Shown in pieces: positions 3,625 to 25,302 of a stretch of DNA of 25,302 nt. The position numbers and the translations under genes were made by a program. Numbering within the stretch: position 1 is the stretch's first letter; each line of letters opens with the position of its first letter. The notes beneath the pieces were generated by a model. The model did no database searches. It was given only the letters and a program-made list of their open reading frames with translations, and was not told where the DNA came from. The stretch is from a virus: positions 1 to 25,302 of IMG/VR virus record IMGVR_UViG_3300017719_000182. One strand, written 5' to 3'.

Positions 3625-3653
3625 ATTGTAATTTAGATCAAGAACAAAGTCAA
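3625..3653 (-). promoter_or_regulatory. Host sigma-70 type promoter for the gp47-gp46 operon
   Basis: On the minus strand, TTGACT (3653 to 3648) and TACAAT (3630 to 3625) are separated by exactly 17 bases. These are one-mismatch matches to the -35 and -10 consensus. Initiation would fall roughly 15 to 20 bases before the TTG start, upstream of the GGAG ribosome site. The -35 box overlaps an 8-base palindrome, AACCGGTT (3652 to 3659), which could be a regulator site or chance. The promoter lies in the only gap between gp55 and gp47. It suggests that the recombination genes are read by unmodified host polymerase. Confidence 0.75.
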
Positions 3654-3657
3654 CCGG

Positions 3658-4482
3658 TTATTTGCCTTCGGTTTCTCTTCGTACTGCTGCGTCCCATTCG
3701 CCGCTGTGCAATCTTGTGTAACTTGGATTAAGGTCATTCATTTCAAGAATATCGTCTCGTATGTTTTGATTGCGTTTTTCCAAGTTAATCACACGCACAA
3801 AACTGTTTGTAACTGCTGCTGTATAATATGCAAAAGGATTCTGTGACTTTGATTCATCAAACTGTAGTCCAATTTGCGATAGTTGAAGGATTGCTTGACC
3901 TTTCATTTCGTCATTGTAAGTGTATCCACGCACATTGCCTCTTGTAGCATAACGATCAACTAATTTCATCCACATCCTTGCTAATTCGTTAGTAGCTTTA
4001 CCGTGTTCAAGGCTGAAATATCCATTTTCCATGCCTCCAGTCCAATGGCTTTTTCCAACACATATTAAGTTATCATCATCGTCAAACTTATAGTGCTGAT
4101 AAGGAGGAAATGGCAATTTAACTTTATGATCAGCAACTGTTTTTGGGTTCTTTTTTCTACCAGGTTGGTCTGGAATATGGTCAAACATCATAACACGAAA
4201 AATTAGTTCAGTCTTTTCCATAGTTCTATAATCAATTTCGCAATCTGCAACTTTAACACGTCTACCAGCAGCCTTAGCTGCTTCGTAGTCGATTGTTGAC
4301 AGTTTTTTTGCTTTATTTCTTTTTGCTTCTGCAATACTATTCCGGTTTATCTTGTCGATGCTTGGTAAGATAATATCGTAATTTGCAAATCCAGGTTCCA
4401 TAAAACTGCTGTAGTTAATTTTGCTCTTGTGTATTTCTGATAGCATGTCTCTATTATTAAGATACTTTACTCTTCTAGCCAT
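3658..4482 (-). CDS. 55: Late-transcription sigma factor gp55, long form
   Basis: gp55 replaces host sigma on RNA polymerase and recognises the short late-promoter box. The start at 4482 (MARRVKY) is chosen because AGGAG lies 5 bases upstream; a start 13 codons earlier would fall inside the promoter. The 274 residues begin with YLNNRDML (7 to 14), which matches the T4 gp55 N-terminus. The sigma region-2-like part is residues 164 to 245, with GYTYNDEM, NPFAYYTAA and FVRVINLEKR aligning well with T4. T4 gp55 is 185 residues; the extra length lies mainly between residues 35 and 155, a basic, aromatic-rich segment with no function I recognise. No T4-like acidic clamp-binding tail (LDFLYE) is seen at the C-terminus. 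Confidence 0.9.
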   Translation of the reverse strand: MARRVKYLNNRDMLSEIHKSKINYSSFMEPGFANYDIILPSIDKINRNSIAEAKRNKAKKLSTIDYEAAKAAGRRVKVADCEIDYRTMEKTELIFRVMMFDHIPDQPGRKKNPKTVADHKVKLPFPPYQHYKFDDDDNLICVGKSHWTGGMENGYFSLEHGKATNELARMWMKLVDRYATRGNVRGYTYNDEMKGQAILQLSQIGLQFDESKSQNPFAYYTAAVTNSFVRVINLEKRNQNIRDDILEMNDLNPSYTRLHSGEWDAAVRRETEGK

Positions 4483-4487
4483 AATTG

Positions 4488-4492
4488 CTCCT
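4488..4492 (-). promoter_or_regulatory. Ribosome binding site deciding the gp55 start
   Basis: AGGAG on the minus strand is followed by CAATT and then ATG. This fixes the translation start of gp55 at 4482 rather than at the upstream in-frame ATG at 4521. Confidence 0.85.
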
Positions 4493-4503
4493 ATTTTATA
4501 TTT

Positions 4504-4532
4504 ATTATAAACTACGTACATATCTTTGTCAA
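4504..4532 (-). promoter_or_regulatory. Perfect consensus sigma-70 promoter for gp55
   Basis: The minus strand carries TTGACA (4532 to 4527), a 17-base spacer, and TATAAT (4509 to 4504). Both hexamers are exact matches. The expected transcript start is near 4497, giving a leader of about 15 bases that contains the AGGAG site. A perfect host-type promoter implies strong expression of the late sigma factor by the unmodified host polymerase, before late transcription begins. Confidence 0.85.
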
Positions 4533-4539
4533 CTAAATA
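4532..4539 (+). promoter_or_regulatory. Candidate late promoter for the baseplate operon
   Basis: ACTAAATA lies 17 bases before the gp48 ATG. T4-type late promoters consist of a single TATAAATA box, often NATAAATA in marine relatives, read by gp55 polymerase. The match here is 6 of 8, with the TAAATA core intact. Initiation would fall near 4545, just before the AGGAG at 4547 to 4551. No sigma-70 -35 is visible at the right distance on this strand. The box shares one base with the -35 of the divergent gp55 promoter. The mismatch at the second position keeps confidence moderate. Confidence 0.45.
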
Positions 4540-4556
4540 CTATAACAGGAGTATAC

Positions 4557-5417
4557 ATGGGATTTTTTAACTTTCTTGACACAGTTGCCGAAAATGTAAA
4601 CAAAGTCAGCAGCACTGTGCAATCAGCACGTAACTTTGTGGATATGGTAAGAGATCCTGCAAAGTTGATTAGTAGTATTAGAAGTAGGAGTATTCCTTCT
4701 GGTGCTGTTCCTCAAGGTAGGCGAACTGTAAACGGAAGTTTTGTTGTTGCAGATCAAAAAGATGGACAAGACTGGCGTGTTCGAATACATTTACCTGCGC
4801 AACCTAGCACATTTGAAACTTCAAAGATATTGCAACCTTTGGTTAAGAGTAATGGAAGTATGGTTTTTCCTACTACGCCACAAATTCTTGTAACACACGG
4901 TGCAAATTATAATATGATGCATCCTGTTCATACAAATTATGCATATCCTGTTTATGAAAACAGTATGGTTGAAGATATTACTATCAGCGGAGAATTTCCT
5001 GTAGAGAACGAAGCAGACGGTGCATACTGGATTGCATCAGTACACTTTATGAGAAGTATAACAAAAATGTTTTACGGCGAAGGTGATTTACAAGGTTCAC
5101 CACCGCCGAGATGTGCGTTAAGTGGATACGGAGACTTTATATTTGATCAAATGCCTATTGTAATCAAGATGTTTAGTATTGATTTACCTAACAATGTTGA
5201 TTATATAAAGGTTCCAATTGACGGCGAAATATATCAAGATGCAATACTAAGGCAGCAAGGATATGTACCCAAGACAAGTACATATACCTATGTTCCAACG
5301 TTAAGTACTATTAATATTACTGTTGCACCTGCATTTAGTAGAGATGCAACTAGGCAATTTAACCTTACAGATTTCATTAATGGTGATTATGTAGGCAACG
5401 GTGGAGGATTTATCTAA
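4557..5417 (+). CDS. 48: Baseplate tail tube cap protein, gp48-like
   Basis: gp48 caps the central baseplate hub and starts the tail tube. The 286-residue protein begins at the ATG at 4557, because AGGAG (4547 to 4551) sits 5 bases before it; the frame is open further upstream but without a ribosome site. The N-terminus is a helix-prone segment (FLDTVAENVNKVSSTVQSA). The rest is mostly beta. The stretch GYGDFIFDQMPIVIK followed by FSIDLPNNVDYI (about residues 193 to 220) is the tube-like fold segment I associate with marine T4-like gp48. The downstream order gp53, hub and spike supports the call. The alternative would be gp54, which belongs to the same tube-like fold group. It overlaps gp53 as TAATG. 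Confidence 0.75.
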   Translation: MGFFNFLDTVAENVNKVSSTVQSARNFVDMVRDPAKLISSIRSRSIPSGAVPQGRRTVNGSFVVADQKDGQDWRVRIHLPAQPSTFETSKILQPLVKSNGSMVFPTTPQILVTHGANYNMMHPVHTNYAYPVYENSMVEDITISGEFPVENEADGAYWIASVHFMRSITKMFYGEGDLQGSPPPRCALSGYGDFIFDQMPIVIKMFSIDLPNNVDYIKVPIDGEIYQDAILRQQGYVPKTSTYTYVPTLSTINITVAPAFSRDATRQFNLTDFINGDYVGNGGGFI

Positions 5418-14444: not shown

Positions 14445-14459
14445 TAGGGTAAATACAAC

Positions 14460-14903
14460 ATGAGCACATTAGAAAAAAATCTGTACAAAAATCTAAGAGT
14501 TAGATCGCCTAAGACTAATACACAGCCTATTATTGACAAAAGCTACAAAGGCATTAGTACAGTAAGCTCAGAAACAAAAAACTATAGATTACGAAATATT
14601 GAATTAATTAAACAAGATATTGTAAATCACTTTCATATAAGAATGGGTGAAAAACTAGAACGCCCAGAATTTGGAACTATTATTTGGGACGTTCTATTTG
14701 AGCCCTTAACAGACAGCCTCAAAGAAGCAATAACACAAAATGTAAATGACATTATTAACTTTGATCCTAGAGTACAAGCTGAAGAAATTGTTGTAGATTC
14801 TTTTGAAAATGGTATACAAGTATATACAACTTTAACATATCTTGATTACAATATCACCGAACAATTGCGCTTTACATTTGATAAAGAAAACGGTCTCATT
14901 TAA
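14460..14903 (+). CDS. 25: Baseplate wedge protein gp25
   Basis: gp25 is the conserved lysozyme-fold wedge protein that joins gp6 and the sheath. The 147 residues (T4: 132) contain the family core RMGEKLERPEFGTIIWD (61 to 77) followed by VLFEP, the position of the widely conserved EPR-type motif. The C-terminus TLTYLDYNITEQLRFTF is typical. AGGG (14446 to 14449) is 10 bases before the ATG, a rather long spacing. There are 15 bases between the previous stop and this start. The order gp25 then gp6 is shared with most contractile tails. Confidence 0.93.
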   Translation: MSTLEKNLYKNLRVRSPKTNTQPIIDKSYKGISTVSSETKNYRLRNIELIKQDIVNHFHIRMGEKLERPEFGTIIWDVLFEPLTDSLKEAITQNVNDIINFDPRVQAEEIVVDSFENGIQVYTTLTYLDYNITEQLRFTFDKENGLI

Positions 14904-14923
14904 TCTGCGCACTTTATTTTTTT

Positions 14924-14931
14924 CATAAATA
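14924..14931 (+). promoter_or_regulatory. Candidate late promoter before gp6
   Basis: CATAAATA differs from the T4 late box TATAAATA only at the first base and fits the marine NATAAATA form. It lies in the 51-base gap between gp25 and gp6, one of the few real gaps in this arm. Initiation is expected near 14937, before the AGAGG at 14942. The surrounding AT-rich tract (TTTATTTTTTT) gives no clear hairpin, so I do not call a terminator here. Confidence 0.6.
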
Positions 14932-17900: not shown

Positions 17901-18458
17901 TATAGAAGTTATGGTAAAGAAATAAACAAAATTAAAAGTATTAGTGATGAAGTAATTTTTCATCCTGTACAATATAAAGTATTGTTTGGAACATCAGCGG
18001 AGACAAATTTGCAAGCAACATTTAAAGTTGTAAAGAATAAGAATCGTGTAGTAAATGATAACGATATTAAAGGTAAAGTAGTTGATGCAATCAATGAATT
18101 CTTTAGTTTAGAAAATTGGGACTTTGGTGAAACTTTCTATTGGAGCGAACTTAGCGCATATATTGTAAAACAACTATCTCCAGATTTAGTAAGTATTGTA
18201 CTTGTGCCAGTAAGTGGACAAAGTAGTTTTGGTAGTTTATTTGAAGTAAAATCTGAAAGTAATGAAATCTTGATAAGCGGTGCAACTGTTTCCAATGTAG
18301 AAATTATTACAGCAATCACTGCCGATAGATTAAAATCAGAAGGCAATATTGTTACATCAGTTACTGCAACTGGCGAAGTTATTCAAAGTGCAGCAGAAAC
18401 AGTAACAAGTACAACTAGTACAGTAGGCACTAGCAACACCGGAGGAAGTAGTTACTAA
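14955..18458 (+). CDS. 6: Baseplate wedge protein gp6
   Basis: gp6 forms the inner ring of the baseplate, binding gp25, gp53 and gp7. The ATG at 14955 is preferred over the in-frame GTG six bases earlier, because AGGA (14944 to 14947) is spaced 7 bases from it. The 1167 residues are much longer than T4 gp6 (660). The N-terminus (YADFKSYDFDTLRRTMINYI, then SEYLALIDLIAFLGQNISFR) is typical of marine gp6. The C-terminal part near residues 1036 to 1085 (VVDAINEFFSLENWDFGETF, then SELSAYIVKQL) is the conserved segment shared with baseplate J-like proteins. The middle carries the additional length. It ends in a Ser/Thr/Gly tail and overlaps the next start as TAATG. Confidence 0.92.
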   Translation: MSATDRQNKLLLAEDWQTIYQSFKYADFKSYDFDTLRRTMINYIRLNYPEDFSDYIESSEYLALIDLIAFLGQNISFRTDLNARENFIELAERRESVLRLARLISYNPTRTQPANGLLKITSLQTTENIIDSNGTNLSSRNIRWNDSVNDNWFEQFIKVLNSSLTQENKFGTPRKAELVAGIRTEKYNVDSRPDVFPVFAFNKNINGKSLPFEVVSTDIADGEIIEDSPSLGKKIGMLYRDNGQGAGSANSGFFMHFRQGTLQKAEFTVSLPTPNQTVGLESSNINNQDIWLYQLDSNQVEQKLWTKVDAVEGNNVIYNSVAKGVRDVYAVQTRTDDRINLIFSDGVFGELPKGNFRAFYRTSENSDYTITPNEISNIKLNIPYVSATGSNETLIVQLSLKQTVSNAASSESTDSIKQNAPSTYYTQNRLITGEDYNIGPLGISQDIIKTKAINRTSSGINRYYDLRDSTGKYSTTNLFGTDGILYKEYLDIKYNFSFQTKTDIEATVENLVTEIIADNNTKNFFADQFLDQDYTDLDLAWQQQTKETNTSTGFLLDNNQLGDADPQYYSVGTSTQGPLRFLQTNALVKFVAPSGSHFMPDGTIMSGPANHAGSRTYIWTKVVAVRNTGSELDEATNTGPIIFSDIIPSGALLTKVKIKYTRDILTSIKQDIIDQVFAYRTFGLRYDRELRNWFIITQDNINIKDSYNIGLTGDTAGQNLDRSWILLFETNGIDYTITVRTLRYIFESNEEIRFYYDNNKKIYDSKTGKIVRDKISVLNINTDLASAGQTSPFTIDFDWAISKEYRDDIGYVNSKKVEVVFFDEDDDGIVDNPQIFDDIVSPDTVPTLEKYVFTKKYTEFDTEYYRYISQSSENIIVVNSYRSINASTVGNPVYYVVETDSFWKVTTATRTIAQVFDYKSFVGRDNLKFQYIHASDENARIDPASSNIMDTYVLTRQYDSQFRQFLKGEVTNMPYPASSDQLYRSYGKEINKIKSISDEVIFHPVQYKVLFGTSAETNLQATFKVVKNKNRVVNDNDIKGKVVDAINEFFSLENWDFGETFYWSELSAYIVKQLSPDLVSIVLVPVSGQSSFGSLFEVKSESNEILISGATVSNVEIITAITADRLKSEGNIVTSVTATGEVIQSAAETVTSTTSTVGTSNTGGSSY

Positions 18459-21400
18459 TGGCATACGATAAGGATCAACAGGATTTTCCATTACCGGCAG
18501 GTAAAGAACCTGAAAGAAAAGCAGAAAACTTTTTGCCAAAATATTTTAGAACTGATACAAATAAAAAGTTCTTACAATCAACAATTGATCAATTTATTAA
18601 TGAAGGTGTTGTAGAAAAACTTAACAGTTTTGTAGGTAGACGAAGTGCAAGAGCACGTATTCCTGCAGATACATATCTTAACGATGTATCAGCTAATAGA
18701 GAAAATTATCAATTTGAGTCTACTGTTGTTTATAAAGACGAGTTAAACAACCTTGATTTCTTTGCAGATTACAATGATTATTTAGGTCAACTTACAAACT
18801 TCAAAGGAACAACTGCAAATCAACGAGTATTAAACCAGCAGGAATCTTATAGCTGGAACCCACATATTGATTGGGACAAATTTAGTAACTTTAGAGAATA
18901 TTATTGGTTGCCAATGGGTCCTCAACCTATTCCTGTAAAAGGACAAAGCAACAAAGTTGTAAGTACATATACAATTCAAACAGTTGATGATGCAGGAGCT
19001 GTAAGCTATGTGTTAAGTCCGGACGGCTTAACTAGAAACCCAACTTTAAATTTGTATAGAGGTCAGGCTATTACATTTGAGATTAATTCTCCTGGGTTTC
19101 CTATTGCTTTTGCCAAATCAAGAGATTTTGATGATGCTGATCCTTTACTAGGAGTTGACCAGCAAAATAATAGCATCTTATATACAGACAATATTAAAAA
19201 GTACATTCTAAACGATATCGGCGAGTATGTTGAAACACAGGACGACTATATTGAAGAAGGCAGAATTATTTTTGAACCAGACAACGATACTCCTGATGAA
19301 TTATATTATATAAATCAAAGAAATATAAACATTAGCGGATTAGTAAATGTTTATCAAATTGAAGAAAACAGTAGTATTGATGTTTCTAAAGAAATAATTG
19401 GAAAAAGAAATTACAAAACAAGTGACGGTGTAGAATTATCAAATGGTATGAAACTATACTTCCTTGGAAATGCTACACCGGAATCATACAATAGTGGATA
19501 TTATTACGTTGAAGGTGTCGGAGATAAGATTATACTTGTTTCTGAAAGCGATTTAGAAGTACCGGCAGTATTTACAAATTTAGAACCTGTTCCTTTTGAT
19601 AATGCAGAATATGGTTTTGATAGATTTCCTTTTGAAGATGCTGCTTCTTATCCAGCAAACAAAGATTATATTACAATTAATCGAGCAAGTGCAGACAGAA
19701 ATCCTTGGAGTAGATATAATCGTTGGTTCCACAAAGATGTAATAGAAACAAGTGCTAGAGCCAGTAATCTAGATATAAATTTAAATCAAGCACAAAGGGC
19801 AAAAAGGCCTATTATTGAATATAACGCAGGTATTAAATTATATCAACATGGACATAAAGCAAAACAAAATGTTAATATTGTAGACACTTATACAAAAGAT
19901 GTCTTTAGTACAATTGAAGGATTAGAAGGTTATATAATTGACGGAGTAACATTAGCTGATGGTATGCGTGTGTTATTTACTGCCGATACTGATGATCTTG
20001 TTAAAGGAAAAATTTACAAAGTAAACTTTATTAACTTTGGAACTACAGAAACTAAGAAAAGACAAATTAGTTTAGTTGAAGAACCTGATGGATTACCTGC
20101 AAACGGTGAATGTATTCTTGCATTAGAAGGCACAGAAAATGCAGGACAAATGTATTATTATAATGATGATGCGTGGTTCAAGAGTCAAAAGAAAACAACA
20201 ATTAATCAATCACCGTTATTTGATCTATTTGACAATGATACGATTAATTTTTCTGATACTATAAATTACACTGCTAGTAGTTTTGCTGGCAACAAATTAT
20301 TTTCCTATGCCATAGGCGCTGGCGCAAATGATCCAGAATTAGGATTTCCTTTAAAGTACAAAAACATTAATAATGTAGGCGATATAGTATTTGAATTTAA
20401 TTTAGTTAAAGATCAGTTTACATATCAAAATAGTACACAAGATCAATTCACCAAAACTTCTGATACAGGTTACTTACAGATTTATAACAGATCATCAGAT
20501 AGTTTTTCATACGAAAATGGTTGGACAAAAACTTCAAATAAACAAACAGTTAGAGAAGGTGTTGTACAAGTATTCGAGAATCAAACAAATAACTTTGATA
20601 TTGATGTGTATACTGATACAACAAAAGATATTTTTGTAAAAGTTTATATCAACGGCGTTAGAAAACAAAAAACAGTTGACTGGAATTTAACTCAAGGTGC
20701 AAACAATAAAATTGTAACATTAGTAACACCTGCTAAACCGGGCGATTTAGTTGTTCTAAAAACTTATTCTAGTTCGTCAAAAAATGAAAAAGGGTATTAT
20801 GAAATACCGCAAAACTTAGAAAGCAATCCTGCAAACTCTAATGTTACAGACTTTACCTTAGGCGAAGTAAATTCACATGTTGAAAGTATCATTGAAAATG
20901 ACTCGTCTTTTGTTGGTGTATATCCAGGAACAAGTAATTTAAGAGATGTAGCATCTCCTACAAAATATGGTACAAGATTTATGCAGCATAGTGGTCCTGC
21001 TAATCTATCAATTTACCATATTACAGATAGAACTGCAAACGTAATAAAAAGTATTGAATTTGCAAGTAGAGAATATAGCAAATTTCAACAACAATTTATT
21101 AAAGAATCTGAACTTACAGGATTTCACGGCTCAGCAGAAAAGCATGTTGATTTAATCCTAACAAGATTGAATGCAGATAAGAATACCGACTTTAGTTTCT
21201 TTGCAAGTGATATGCTAGGATATAAACCAAGTGTAACTACTTCTCATAAAATTGAATATGATGGCGAAGCTTTTTTTGCATTATCTACACCTTTTGATTT
21301 AAGTACATTAACCAACAAAGCAGTTAATGTTTACTTAAACAATGAACATCTTGTCTTTGGCACAGATTATATTTTTGAAAACGGTTTTGTAAAAGTTACT

Positions 21401-24400
21401 AGAAGTTTAGTCGAGGACGACGAAATTATAGTTGTTGAATACAATAATACAAATGGTAGTTATATTCCACCTACTCCGAGTAAATTAGGATTATTACCAA
21501 AGTTTGTACCGGTATTGTTTCCTTATGTAACTACTAATGGAACAACAGTTAATATGATACGTTGTCATGACGGTAGTTTAACAAAAGCATATGATGATTA
21601 TAGAGATGAACTTATTCTTGAATTAGAATATAGAATTTATAATAACATTAAAACTTTATATAATGCTGATGTTCTCGATTATTATGATTTCTTTCCAGGG
21701 TATTCAAGAAACACAAATATATCAAAACAAGAAATTGATAATATATTATTAAAAGACTTTAGCAACTGGTTAGAAAAAGCAGGTAACCCAGATTACAGTG
21801 ATGCATCTTTTTGGGACTCGTCAAATAGCTTTACATATAACTATAGTAATTCAACAGATATAAATGGCGTGCCGTTACAAGGTAGTTGGTATAATATATA
21901 CCAAACTTATTTTGATACAACAAAGCCACATTTAACACCGTGGGCAATGCTAGGATATGATATAGCACCGACATGGTGGTATTCAGTATACGGTCCTGCT
22001 CCATACACTCGAAATAATACTATACTTTGGAATGACTTACGTGACGGTGTTATAAGAGAGCCGGGCAAGTCTGTTATTATAAACAAAAAACTAGCAAGAC
22101 CAATACTTAACGATGTAATTCCAGTAAACGAATTTGGACAACTTATAAGTCCGCTTGAATGCGGATTAGCAGTTAATTTTGTATTACTAGAAAGTAAACA
22201 AAGTTACGTATTCGGAGATCAAGCACCAGTTGAAAGAGCCTGGAGAGAAAGCAGCGAATATAATTTTGCGTTACTTAAAGCATGGGTGTTATTACAGCCT
22301 GCAAAACTATTAGGTGTTGGATTTGATATAAGCAGAATAGAAAGAGATATTGCTGGAAATATTGTATACTCTGCTACAGGAAAAAGAATTGCGTTACCAG
22401 ATTTATTATATCCAAATGTAAATGGTGAAGATAATACAACACTTACAAGCGGCCTAGTAAATTATATTTCAAATTATGTAAGATTTACAAAAGCTGGAAA
22501 GTACGAAAGTTATCAAACCCAGTTAAGCGGCCTTAAAAATCAGTTAGGATTTAAATTAGGCGGCTTTGCAGATAAGTCAAAATTAAAGCTAGTATTAGAT
22601 AGCAGAAGTCCTTTAAACAAAACAAGTGTTTTTGTTCCTGATGAAAACTATGATATATATCTAACTACAAGTAGTCCGCAAGATACTCCTGCTCTAAGCG
22701 GTATTATTATTGAAAAAGTTGTAAATGAAAAATATCTTATCAAAGGATATGATAAACAGAATCCTGTATTTACAATTAATCGAGCAATTCCTAAACAATC
22801 AGATACTGCTATTACAGTAGGCGGTGTAAGTGAAACGTTTATTACCTGGAATGAAGAGAAAACATATAGCATTGGATCTATAGTAGAATATAGTGGTGCA
22901 TATTATAGAACAAAAATTACTCATGTAAGCACATCTGATTTTGATACAACTAAATTTACAAAACTAGCAGAATTGCCAATAGTTGGCGGAGAAACAGCAG
23001 TGTTGCGTAAATCCTTTGAGGAAGAAACAACAAATATTCCATACGGAACATTATTTGATAGTGTGCAAGATGTAGCAGACTTTATGCTAGGATATGAATA
23101 TTATTTAAACTCGCAAGGATTTGTTTTTGAAAGTGTTAATCAAGAAACAGCACAAGTAGAAGACATGAAACTTGTATTACAAGAATACTTATTCTGGGTT
23201 ACACAAAATTGGTCTGCAGGTACAGTAATTGCAATAAGTCCAGTAGCAAGTGAAGTAAAGTTTAGTAGAGATTATTACAGTGTTGACGATCTTTATGATC
23301 CTTTCTATGAAACTAACATACTTACTGGTAATGGAACAGCATTAGGTCCAGAATTTAATAATATTTTCAGAGACAAAGATGTTGACTTTACTTTACGTCC
23401 AATAGAATCTGATTCGGGTGTTTATCTAATCAAACTACCCTTAGTACAAACTGAACATTTGGTTTTGATCGATAACGAAACTGTATTTAATGATACAATT
23501 TATGATCCTACTGCTGGCTTTAGACAAGACCGTATTAAAGTAGTTGGATATAGAACCGATGGCTGGACTGGTAATTTAAACATACCTGGGTTTGTATATG
23601 ACAGAGCTGAGTGTAGAGTATGGACCCCGTTTACTGATTATACAATTGGAGACTTGGTAAAGTACAAAGAGTTTTATTACAGTGCATTTGGTAAACACAC
23701 AAGCGGTCAAATATTTGATAATAAAAATTGGAGAAGACTGGCCGAAAAGCCTACGTCACAAGTCTTGCCAAACTGGGATTATAAAGCAAATCAATTTGCT
23801 GATTTCTATGATTTAGATACAGATAACTTTGACACTGAGCAACAACGACTTGCACAGCATTTAATTGGATATCAACCAAGAGAATACCTTGCTAACATTA
23901 TTACCGATACTGTAAGCCAATACAAGTTCTATCAAGGATTTATACAAGAAAAAGGTACTGCAAACAGTTTAACAAAATTATTTGATCCGCTAAGTGCAGC
24001 TGATAAAGATAGTGTTGAATTCTATGAAGAATGGGCAATACGTTTAGGGCAGTACGGTAGCATTGATAACCTAAGAGAAATCGAATACAAATTAGACGAA
24101 AACAAGTACAAGCTCGAACCTCAAGTATTTGAACTAACAAATAGTATTAATCAATCTAGAGTTGATCTTGTAAATGAGATTCCTAAATCAACTGTTTACA
24201 AAAAACCAGCAAATTATGATCATACAATCGTTCCTGTACTAAATGATAATACAAATTATACTAGGAATGCAGGATATGTTAAAAACGATCAAGTATCTTA
24301 TGTTATTACCAATTGGGAAAATATATTAGACATAAACATAGATTCACTTAATGTTGGCGAAAACATTTGGATAACACAAAACGAATCAAACACATGGGCT

Positions 24401-25302
24401 ACTTACAAACATGTTAGATCTGATCTTGTTGTAAAATCTTATGCTGCTTCAACATTCTCGGACATAGAGACAGTTGAAATTGTAGCTGATAGCTACATTA
24501 AAGATATTAAAGTCGATGATTTTGTTGGAGTTCTAGCACCTGAACTATCGGGGTTTGCACAGGTTGTAGATGTAAACTTAAACAAATTACAACTTATTGG
24601 ATTACCTACCCCGCCAGCAATCGATGTTGACGACAGTACTGATAATCCTTATGCTAATGCATCAATTACAAAATTTGTTAATAGACGTTACAACGATACT
24701 AATGACATGGCCACTAACATTACAAATATTGAAAAAGACAATGTAGATACAATATGGTTAGATAATAATGGCACAGGCAATTGGTCTGTTTATGAAAATA
24801 GATCAATATACGATTTAACTAGAGAGTTAGGCAATCCTACTAGTGACCTAGGATTTGGAGAAAGTTTTGATTTAAATGCTACAAATAATGTTTTAGCAAT
24901 AGGCAATCCGAGAACAGAAAAATTACAAATATATTCTAGATTTGCCCAAAAATTTAACTTTAGCGAAATACAAGATTATGGAGTTTCAACTGATTACCAC
25001 AATGCTATTTCAGACTATGGACACAGTGTTGCAGTATCTCCAGATGGAAATACAGTAGCAGTTGGAGCACCGTTAGCAAGCAATACAACTACTAGATTCA
25101 AAGGTCCGCTTGTAGCAGGACAGGCGTATATAGCTGGCGATATTGTTAGCGAAAGCGGTACGTTATGGAAAGCAAAAGTTGATATAACATCTTGGGAAGA
25201 TGCACAAGGCGATAGCAGTACTATAACAAGCAACGACCAAGATTGGGAAGCTGTTTACTTTATTACAGCTGGAGAAGGAACAGGCTCAACTTTAGCACAA
25301 GA
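18458..25302 (+). CDS. Giant baseplate-linked structural protein at the gp7 position, partial
   Basis: The frame is open from the ATG at 18458 to the window edge, giving at least 2281 residues with the C-terminus missing. GGAGG (18441 to 18445) precedes the ATG, which overlaps the gp6 stop. The N-terminus (NFLPKYFRTDTNKKFL, about 23 to 38; NPHIDWDKFSNFREYYWLP, about 135 to 153) and later blocks (NPWSRYNRWFHKDVI near 415; CHDGS near 1036; GDQAPVERAWRESSEYNFAL near 1254; HLIGYQPREYL near 1801) look like the very large virion proteins of marine T4-like phages. Three CBM5/12-like modules start near 1464, 1722 and 2219. FG-GAP-like beta-propeller blades begin near 2130. Gene order suggests the wedge role of gp7 (1032 residues in T4), with possible receptor-binding decoration. 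That role is inference. Confidence 0.8.
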   Translation, partial: MAYDKDQQDFPLPAGKEPERKAENFLPKYFRTDTNKKFLQSTIDQFINEGVVEKLNSFVGRRSARARIPADTYLNDVSANRENYQFESTVVYKDELNNLDFFADYNDYLGQLTNFKGTTANQRVLNQQESYSWNPHIDWDKFSNFREYYWLPMGPQPIPVKGQSNKVVSTYTIQTVDDAGAVSYVLSPDGLTRNPTLNLYRGQAITFEINSPGFPIAFAKSRDFDDADPLLGVDQQNNSILYTDNIKKYILNDIGEYVETQDDYIEEGRIIFEPDNDTPDELYYINQRNINISGLVNVYQIEENSSIDVSKEIIGKRNYKTSDGVELSNGMKLYFLGNATPESYNSGYYYVEGVGDKIILVSESDLEVPAVFTNLEPVPFDNAEYGFDRFPFEDAASYPANKDYITINRASADRNPWSRYNRWFHKDVIETSARASNLDINLNQAQRAKRPIIEYNAGIKLYQHGHKAKQNVNIVDTYTKDVFSTIEGLEGYIIDGVTLADGMRVLFTADTDDLVKGKIYKVNFINFGTTETKKRQISLVEEPDGLPANGECILALEGTENAGQMYYYNDDAWFKSQKKTTINQSPLFDLFDNDTINFSDTINYTASSFAGNKLFSYAIGAGANDPELGFPLKYKNINNVGDIVFEFNLVKDQFTYQNSTQDQFTKTSDTGYLQIYNRSSDSFSYENGWTKTSNKQTVREGVVQVFENQTNNFDIDVYTDTTKDIFVKVYINGVRKQKTVDWNLTQGANNKIVTLVTPAKPGDLVVLKTYSSSSKNEKGYYEIPQNLESNPANSNVTDFTLGEVNSHVESIIENDSSFVGVYPGTSNLRDVASPTKYGTRFMQHSGPANLSIYHITDRTANVIKSIEFASREYSKFQQQFIKESELTGFHGSAEKHVDLILTRLNADKNTDFSFFASDMLGYKPSVTTSHKIEYDGEAFFALSTPFDLSTLTNKAVNVYLNNEHLVFGTDYIFENGFVKVTRSLVEDDEIIVVEYNNTNGSYIPPTPSKLGLLPKFVPVLFPYVTTNGTTVNMIRCHDGSLTKAYDDYRDELILELEYRIYNNIKTLYNADVLDYYDFFPGYSRNTNISKQEIDNILLKDFSNWLEKAGNPDYSDASFWDSSNSFTYNYSNSTDINGVPLQGSWYNIYQTYFDTTKPHLTPWAMLGYDIAPTWWYSVYGPAPYTRNNTILWNDLRDGVIREPGKSVIINKKLARPILNDVIPVNEFGQLISPLECGLAVNFVLLESKQSYVFGDQAPVERAWRESSEYNFALLKAWVLLQPAKLLGVGFDISRIERDIAGNIVYSATGKRIALPDLLYPNVNGEDNTTLTSGLVNYISNYVRFTKAGKYESYQTQLSGLKNQLGFKLGGFADKSKLKLVLDSRSPLNKTSVFVPDENYDIYLTTSSPQDTPALSGIIIEKVVNEKYLIKGYDKQNPVFTINRAIPKQSDTAITVGGVSETFITWNEEKTYSIGSIVEYSGAYYRTKITHVSTSDFDTTKFTKLAELPIVGGETAVLRKSFEEETTNIPYGTLFDSVQDVADFMLGYEYYLNSQGFVFESVNQETAQVEDMKLVLQEYLFWVTQNWSAGTVIAISPVASEVKFSRDYYSVDDLYDPFYETNILTGNGTALGPEFNNIFRDKDVDFTLRPIESDSGVYLIKLPLVQTEHLVLIDNETVFNDTIYDPTAGFRQDRIKVVGYRTDGWTGNLNIPGFVYDRAECRVWTPFTDYTIGDLVKYKEFYYSAFGKHTSGQIFDNKNWRRLAEKPTSQVLPNWDYKANQFADFYDLDTDNFDTEQQRLAQHLIGYQPREYLANIITDTVSQYKFYQGFIQEKGTANSLTKLFDPLSAADKDSVEFYEEWAIRLGQYGSIDNLREIEYKLDENKYKLEPQVFELTNSINQSRVDLVNEIPKSTVYKKPANYDHTIVPVLNDNTNYTRNAGYVKNDQVSYVITNWENILDINIDSLNVGENIWITQNESNTWATYKHVRSDLVVKSYAASTFSDIETVEIVADSYIKDIKVDDFVGVLAPELSGFAQVVDVNLNKLQLIGLPTPPAIDVDDSTDNPYANASITKFVNRRYNDTNDMATNITNIEKDNVDTIWLDNNGTGNWSVYENRSIYDLTRELGNPTSDLGFGESFDLNATNNVLAIGNPRTEKLQIYSRFAQKFNFSEIQDYGVSTDYHNAISDYGHSVAVSPDGNTVAVGAPLASNTTTRFKGPLVAGQAYIAGDIVSESGTLWKAKVDITSWEDAQGDSSTITSNDQDWEAVYFITAGEGTGSTLAQ
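22847..22981 (+). other. Carbohydrate-binding-like module 1 inside the giant protein
   Basis: The encoded segment has the pattern W, then TYSIGSIVEYSGAYYRTK, then H, then FDTTKFTKL. This is the Y-x-x-G-x-x-V-x-x-x-x-x-Y/W-x-A/T core of CBM5/12-type (chitin-binding-like) modules, about 45 residues long. Such modules are common in phage tail and fibre proteins. Ligand unknown. Confidence 0.55.
23621..23757 (+). other. Carbohydrate-binding-like module 2 inside the giant protein
   Basis: The encoded segment is WTPFTDYTIGDLVKYKEFYY, then H-T-S-G, then FDNKNWRRL. It is the clearest of the three CBM5/12-like copies and matches the first module nearly residue for residue in spacing of the aromatic and Gly positions. 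Confidence 0.6.
24851..25302 (+). other. Start of an FG-GAP-like beta-propeller with an inserted third module
   Basis: Two blade-like repeats are visible: GFGESFDLNATNNVLAIGNP, and GHSVAVSPDGNTVAVGAP beginning near 25019. They match the G-x-S-V-A-x-S-x-D-G-N-x-x-A-V-G-A-P form of FG-GAP-type propeller repeats. A third CBM-like module (AYIAGDIVSESGTLWKAK, 25112 to about 25255) appears to interrupt the second blade. More blades probably follow beyond the window. Confidence 0.55.

Follow-up and report, generated by a model that had tools for sequence, protein, structure and literature searches.

The best described systems close to the control region considered here are the late promoters of bacteriophage T4, which are read by the sigma factor gp55 together with gp33 and gp45; these promoters have no conserved sequence at the −35 position, gp33 itself reads no sequence, and the T4 clamp adds 13 bp upstream of the late polymerase footprint (Geiduschek and Kassavetis 2010, PMC2988020). 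The T4 late box spans positions −13 to −6 relative to the start, and the late promoters of phage Aeh1, which are predicted boxes only, read CTAAATA (both according to PMC1524935). The jumbo phages CBB and GAP32 have an ATAAATA late motif and, upstream of gp55, a TGAAACG-type promoter (PMC5259590), and in phi29 a switch between the early promoters A2b/A2c and the late promoter A3 has been described (Camacho and Salas 2010, PMC3100819). At the locus described below an early and a late promoter appear to be packed into one short gap beside a gp55 gene, and no description of such an early/late promoter overlap was found among the papers searched.

The DNA analysed (the window) is a 25.3-kb viral fragment from IMG/VR, positions 1–25302, and its features relevant to the argument are as follows.

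3625–3653, minus strand: separate early promoter of gp47, TTGACT-17-TACAAT, from a promoter scan, with counterparts at gp47 in contigs G001 and G004.
3658–4482, minus strand: gp55, T4-type late sigma factor, 274 amino acids (PHROG 12791, E 1.3e-75; phrog_234, E 6.6e-21).
4499–4504, minus strand: second TAAATA, toward gp55, overlapping the −10 (TATAATAAATA), in 17 of 53 loci.
4504–4509, minus strand: −10 TATAAT of the gp55 early promoter, read in the sequence and in a promoter scan.
4513–4518, no strand assigned: TACGTA, putative upstream element of the late promoter, inside the early spacer and starting 21 nt upstream of TAAATA.
4527–4532, minus strand: −35 TTGACA of the gp55 early promoter, read in the sequence and in a promoter scan.
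4533–4539, plus strand: late box CTAAATA, toward the structural operon, read in the sequence.
4547–4551, plus strand: ribosome-binding site AGGAG, read in the sequence; the leader that holds it is predicted to be 12 nt long.
4557–5417, plus strand: virion structural gene, first in the rightward baseplate operon (phrog_12050, E 5.5e-49).
14906–14911, plus strand: TGCGCA, putative upstream element at the late promoter of gp6.
14926–14931, plus strand: TAAATA late box of gp6, in 27 of 27 nonredundant gp6 loci.

The initial annotation, made from the letters of the window, had called the left-hand gene a late sigma factor and the right-hand genes a structural operon, and the profile matches agree on both counts: the phrog_12050 gene is directly followed by a baseplate wedge subunit gene (phrog_7145), the rightward series continuing with hub/lysozyme and gp6, and leftward from the gap gp55 is followed by homologues of gp47 and gp46. 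The gp55 product is about 90 residues longer than that of T4, the extra length being mostly N-terminal, and phmmer matches its residues 172–237 to T4 gp55 in PDB entry 7d7c (E 4.6e-4); this homology, which covers the sigma region 2 part, places it in the T4 gp55 late sigma family. The mean pLDDT of its AlphaFold model is 59, so that a fold search for a DNA-reading role of the extra N-terminus is not supportable. A profile search for the sliding clamp (PF02916) gave no match in seven records, nor did its controls give one. At the right end of the window, an open reading frame of more than 2281 amino acids (18458–25300) runs past the end and probably encodes a giant baseplate or tail protein.

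Relatives of the window are T4-like jumbo phages, and the clade is a large group of T4-like bacterial viruses, uncultured and for the most part marine; it is widespread, a gp55 search of IMG/VR giving at least 600 matches. The collections searched contained no cultured member, and a DNA search with the gap of one relative returned weak, scattered matches only and no cultured close relative.

Between gp55 (starting at 4482, minus strand) and the structural gene (4557, plus strand) there are 74 bases, 4483–4556. The perfect sigma-70 promoter (TTGACA-17-TATAAT) originally noted here as pointing left into gp55 was borne out, with 12 of 12 bases matching over 4532–4504 (minus strand) and a spacer of 17 bases; it is the sole 12/12 match in the 20 kb scanned and the sole exact match in the full 25.3-kb record, and similar sigma-70 promoters were found upstream of other clade genes. 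By its match, its spacing and its place upstream of an early gene it would qualify as a sigma-70 early promoter, for which standard sigma-70 spacing predicts a leftward start near 4497. The TAAATA said to point right is likewise present in the gap (4534–4539, plus strand), directed toward the structural gene, and T4 spacing (PMC1524935) predicts a start at about 4545, as the initial annotation had done; a TATAAATA-like box some 6 nt before a predicted start is what a T4-type late promoter would be expected to show. The proposal that the two promoters share base 4532 holds if the late box is taken to be the T4 eight-base box ACTAAATA (4532–4539), but not for the hexamers TTGACA and TAAATA, which have no base in common and are separated by C4533. 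As for the second TAAATA, facing gp55, the idea that it is a conserved autoregulatory late box was dropped in view of its presence at 17/53 loci only.

Conservation of this arrangement was assessed in 80 viral contigs selected by gp55, three further contigs and the window, from which 54 nonredundant loci were taken whose gp55 DNA differs by at least 10% pairwise (less than 90% identity). The relatives are the best matches to one query, so that the most distant members of the clade are under-represented. TAAATA faces the structural gene at all 54 loci, and its loss in relatives that keep the gene order, an outcome against which the initial annotation had asked for a check, was not seen. The fused block TATTTAGTTGAC occurs at the −35 in 52/54, the remaining two loci having both boxes at a changed distance, and a second gp55 query, whose sample overlaps the first, again gave 52/54. 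Alignment of the gap in relatives thus upholds both boxes throughout, but the exact overlap is not universal. Variation within the early promoter is confined to TTGACA (42 loci) or TTGACT (12) and TATAAT (43) or TATTAT (11), with a spacing of 17 in 53/54. Pairwise identity is 97% at the late box and 94% at the −35 and −10, as against 68% in the early spacer, and fourfold third positions in the same genes are 44% identical where 36% would be expected from composition alone, so that unconstrained sites are near saturation. As judged from these alignments, the fused arrangement is conserved far beyond chance.

A search of IMG/VR for the exact fused pattern that was blind to gp55 led back to the same place, 99 of 120 sampled matches lying at gp55 (94 placed by tblastn, and five at contig ends judged by eye). 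At all 49 loci with enough flank, a divergent open reading frame of 228–333 amino acids begins 0–23 nt past the late box, mostly at 12–23 nt, the few shorter values reflecting upstream alternative start codons, and it was phrog_12050 in all ten cases tested. The possibility that GTCAA is a general extension of the late box was ruled out, since TCAACTAAATA occurs only once or twice per clade contig, and an orientation bias of TAAATA upstream of genes proved weak as evidence because its anagrams are biased similarly. Taken together, conservation strongly supports a putative divergent early/late promoter pair in the gp55 gap.

Exceptions to this arrangement are of three kinds. L068 has lost 1 bp between the boxes and kept both. 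One lineage, L043/L411, L412 and L413, retains the late box in TATAAATA form after decay of the old early −35 and −10 and has a new TTGACT-16/17-TATAAT about 60 bp nearer gp55. The named phage Atu_ph07 retains the fused block (TATTTAGTTGACAAATTAACTAC) with a decayed −10, and TTGCAA-17-TATATT can be read in its sequence further in. From these exceptions it follows that the block is made of two separable elements rather than one. Among named jumbo phages, the divergent order of structural gene and gp55 is kept in PA5oct, Atu_ph07, 121Q, GAP32, RaK2 and a Vibrio phage (in Atu_ph07 and Phosso a nucleotidyltransferase-type gene is inserted on the structural side), and TAAATA is directed toward the structural gene in all seven examined; its distance to the gp55 promoter is varied, mostly short, and the spacing is looser. 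Exact overlap, missing from one lineage and from the named jumbo phages, is not obligatory, and exact fusion would be mainly a feature of the uncultured clade, compact divergence being older. The overall reading first proposed therefore stands, through conservation, as regards the promoter pair, but not as regards an exact overlap, which is lost in L043/L411, L412 and L413 and looser in the named jumbo phages.

The initial annotation missed one component, the palindrome TRCGYA, through which the early promoter comes to lie within the late one. The early spacer has a core, [AG]CGTA, conserved in fixed register beyond what sigma-70 needs, and TRCGYA is exact in the gp55 gap of 30/53 loci and within one mismatch in 46/53. 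A general early-promoter feature was ruled out, as among clade promoters the register RCGTA..TTATAAT recurs only at gp55. At gp6, 10 kb away, a TRCGYA core again lies 20–21 nt upstream of TAAATA, within one mismatch in 27/27 nonredundant loci (19 exact; shuffled controls averaged 2 and never exceeded 8). In L043, L412 and L413 TRCGYA stays 21 nt from the late box despite the lost early −35 and −10. Because it is shared with gp6 and survives decay of the early promoter, TRCGYA is best assigned to the late side, from which it follows that the early gp55 promoter would be nested inside an extended late promoter.

In 733 kb from eight contigs, TRCGYASTTWA is intergenic at 20 of 24 sites, where intergenic DNA makes up 7% (p 1e-19, a count that treats homologous sites in different contigs as separate); the reversed motif is intergenic at none of ten. 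The composite RCGYASTT-N9-13-TAAATA has 12 matches in the clade contigs, at gp6, the gp55 gap and a few other places, and two in 2.1 Mb of six named phages; its backward control has none. The notion that TRCGYA occurs at all late promoters was rejected (discovery set 12/84 vs 10/262; held-out set 4/92 upstream vs 3/280 other), and its distribution makes it a feature of a subset of putative late promoters, namely those of gp6, the gp55 gap and some tail genes. Recognition of the element could fall to the gp55 polymerase itself, to a partner resembling gp33 or to a regulatory protein. Near-perfect palindromes such as TTAACTGCGCACTTAA also lie between genes near TAAATA (G001 161611, G005 13757, G006 24732 and G001 95525), some of the flanking genes being structural, and these look like operators.

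Overlap of early and late boxes is not confined to gp55. At the GTP cyclohydrolase gene (L251–L330) a TAAATA of the same direction lies inside the early spacer in 46/52 nonredundant promoters, usually as TTGACA-N6-TAAATA-N5-TATAAT (also at G001 43866, locus L215), and this may be a dual early-plus-late promoter. The HNH endonuclease phrog_1314 (L331–L410; G001 49627; G004 111980) has a nested TAAATA in 20/23 nonredundant promoters, 4–7 bases after TTGACA. Most TAAATA anagrams are absent from these nested spacers, and those that occur (such as AAATAT and AATATA) largely overlap TAAATA itself. Together with gp55, the two cases indicate that these phages repeatedly let early and late boxes overlap, in divergent form at gp55 and nested in parallel elsewhere. 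The DNA polymerase gene of G001 also has a nested TAAATA, absent from its G002 homologue.

Among its 15 anagrams TAAATA ranks lowest or second lowest in abundance in each of the five contigs counted (the window, G001, G004, G009 and G010), with 19 observed against 45 expected in the window, which suggests that stray late boxes are avoided. A late box need not be active at every site where it occurs. Several other placements were seen. In a compact late-late pair, TTCCTTAAATACTGTATGAGTATTTATAG, the divergent boxes are separated by a few bases only (G001 106694–107442 and the homologous G004 55818–56851). At a small MSRPKPK gene, TAAATA-TA-TRCGTA precedes an inverted copy that lies at the start codon (TATGCGTAGTTTATATTAAAGGATACGCATATG; G004 114299–114330, G001 47763 and G002 72675), possibly a hairpin over the ribosome-binding site. 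Finally, the start codon of the gp25-like gene follows its TAAATA box at a distance of only 10 bases (TAAATACAACATG, window 14450–14460), as it also does in G001, G004, G009 and G010, and a near-leaderless late mRNA is predicted.

The nested arrangement and its conservation can be read from the sequences themselves, and with slightly better than even confidence the gap is interpreted here as a divergent early/late control region in which the two polymerases exclude each other and gp55 damps its own early promoter. Early in infection, host sigma-70 polymerase would transcribe gp55 from the left promoter. The gp55 polymerase, on opening the right promoter for the structural operon, would then cover the early −35 and −10 and so block the early promoter, and gp55 would lower its own early transcription as late transcription begins; conversely, a strong sigma-70 complex would keep the late promoter closed until sigma-70 activity drops. 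The footprint of a sigma-70 polymerase is by standard −40 to +20. At the left start it would cover about 4477–4537, most of the late box included, and a late polymerase at the right start about 4505–4565, where a T4-like clamp would reach beyond the left −10. The predicted starts, 4497 and 4545, are 48 bp apart and the footprints overlap by more than 30 bp, so that the two complexes should be unable to sit together and the early promoter of gp55 would be expected to fall silent once late initiation begins. The footprint sizes behind this deduction are those established for E. coli and T4; mutual exclusion and the shutting by the late sigma of its own promoter are inferred, and both are compatible with the geometry. 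Having their own early promoter, gp47 and gp46 need not follow the shutdown of gp55. A more specific proposal, made tentatively and with the balance of probability against it, is that late promoters of the clade include an extended class, TRCGYASTTW-~10 bases-TAAATA, whose upstream element, lacking in T4, is specifically recognised, and that at gp55 this element would also form the centre of a two-way switch, its reader activating the structural operon and shutting the early gp55 promoter in a single step.

It could be argued instead that two independent promoters stand back to back for compactness, their offset being locked because an indel would harm one of them, with no regulatory effect. 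The looser, varied spacing of the boxes in other jumbo phages favours this, as do the survival of L043, L412 and L413 after splitting the boxes and the occurrence of divergent late-late pairs elsewhere in the clade. However, starts so close together leave no room for two polymerases, so that physical interference is to be expected, and the offset is fixed in 52/54 loci even though separation is evidently possible; independence is accordingly regarded as doubtful. A different objection is that the decisive agent may be a phage or host DNA-binding protein that sits on the palindrome WTAASTRCGYASTTWA, activating the late promoter and blocking the early one much as p4 does in phi29, with polymerase competition secondary. 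The strongly intergenic placement of TRCGYASTTWA speaks for a regulator, as do its often near-palindromic form (the example at G001 161611 among others), its position about two turns of the helix ahead of TAAATA at gp6 and gp55, and the late boxes that flank it on both sides, at 19–21 nt, in L043, L412 and L413. Against this, no candidate protein is named, the position of the palindrome relative to TAAATA varies at other sites, and in the gp55 gap conservation does not extend to both half-sites, left and right, which makes the regulator unlikely.

It might even be supposed that GTCAACTAAATA is a single composite late promoter or operator in which TTGAC is no working −35, as the retention of TATTTAGTTGACAAATTAACTAC by Atu_ph07 despite decay of the matching −10 would suggest. 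This is very improbable, given that GTCAA is absent at other late promoters, that L043, L412 and L413 lose TTGAC and keep the late box and TRCGYA, and that the −10 and the 17-base spacing are conserved as well as TTGAC.

If mutual exclusion of the nested promoters does operate, feedback would be hard-wired in T4-like phages: the late sigma would shut its own early promoter and, from the same DNA, turn on the structural genes. Late promoters with an upstream element would also make the question of sigma region 4 replacement testable in a new system.

Compared with T4, the clade has the same gp55-family sigma, a TAAATA-type box about one turn before the start, an AT-rich start region and structural genes; it differs in the TRCGYA that precedes the box by 20–21 nt at gp6 and the gp55 gap, and in a late box that adjoins an early −35. 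Since the absence of upstream conservation that marks T4 late promoters does not extend to it, the clade late promoter would be an extended variant of the T4 kind. A C precedes TAAATA as in Aeh1, for which, however, the accessible part of PMC1524935 reports neither a fused early −35 nor an upstream element. With CBB and GAP32 the clade shares the gene order structural gene, gp55, gp47, gp46 and the prediction of both kinds of promoter, and with GAP32 also a TAAATA in the gp55 gap, but the gp55 promoter of those phages is of a variant class with looser spacing, and GAP32 has no match to the TRCGYA composite. As in phi29, early and late promoters would be controlled at one shared region with late activation paired with early repression; phi29, however, uses the regulators p4 and p6 with the host polymerase, whereas in the clade the early gene product is itself the late sigma.
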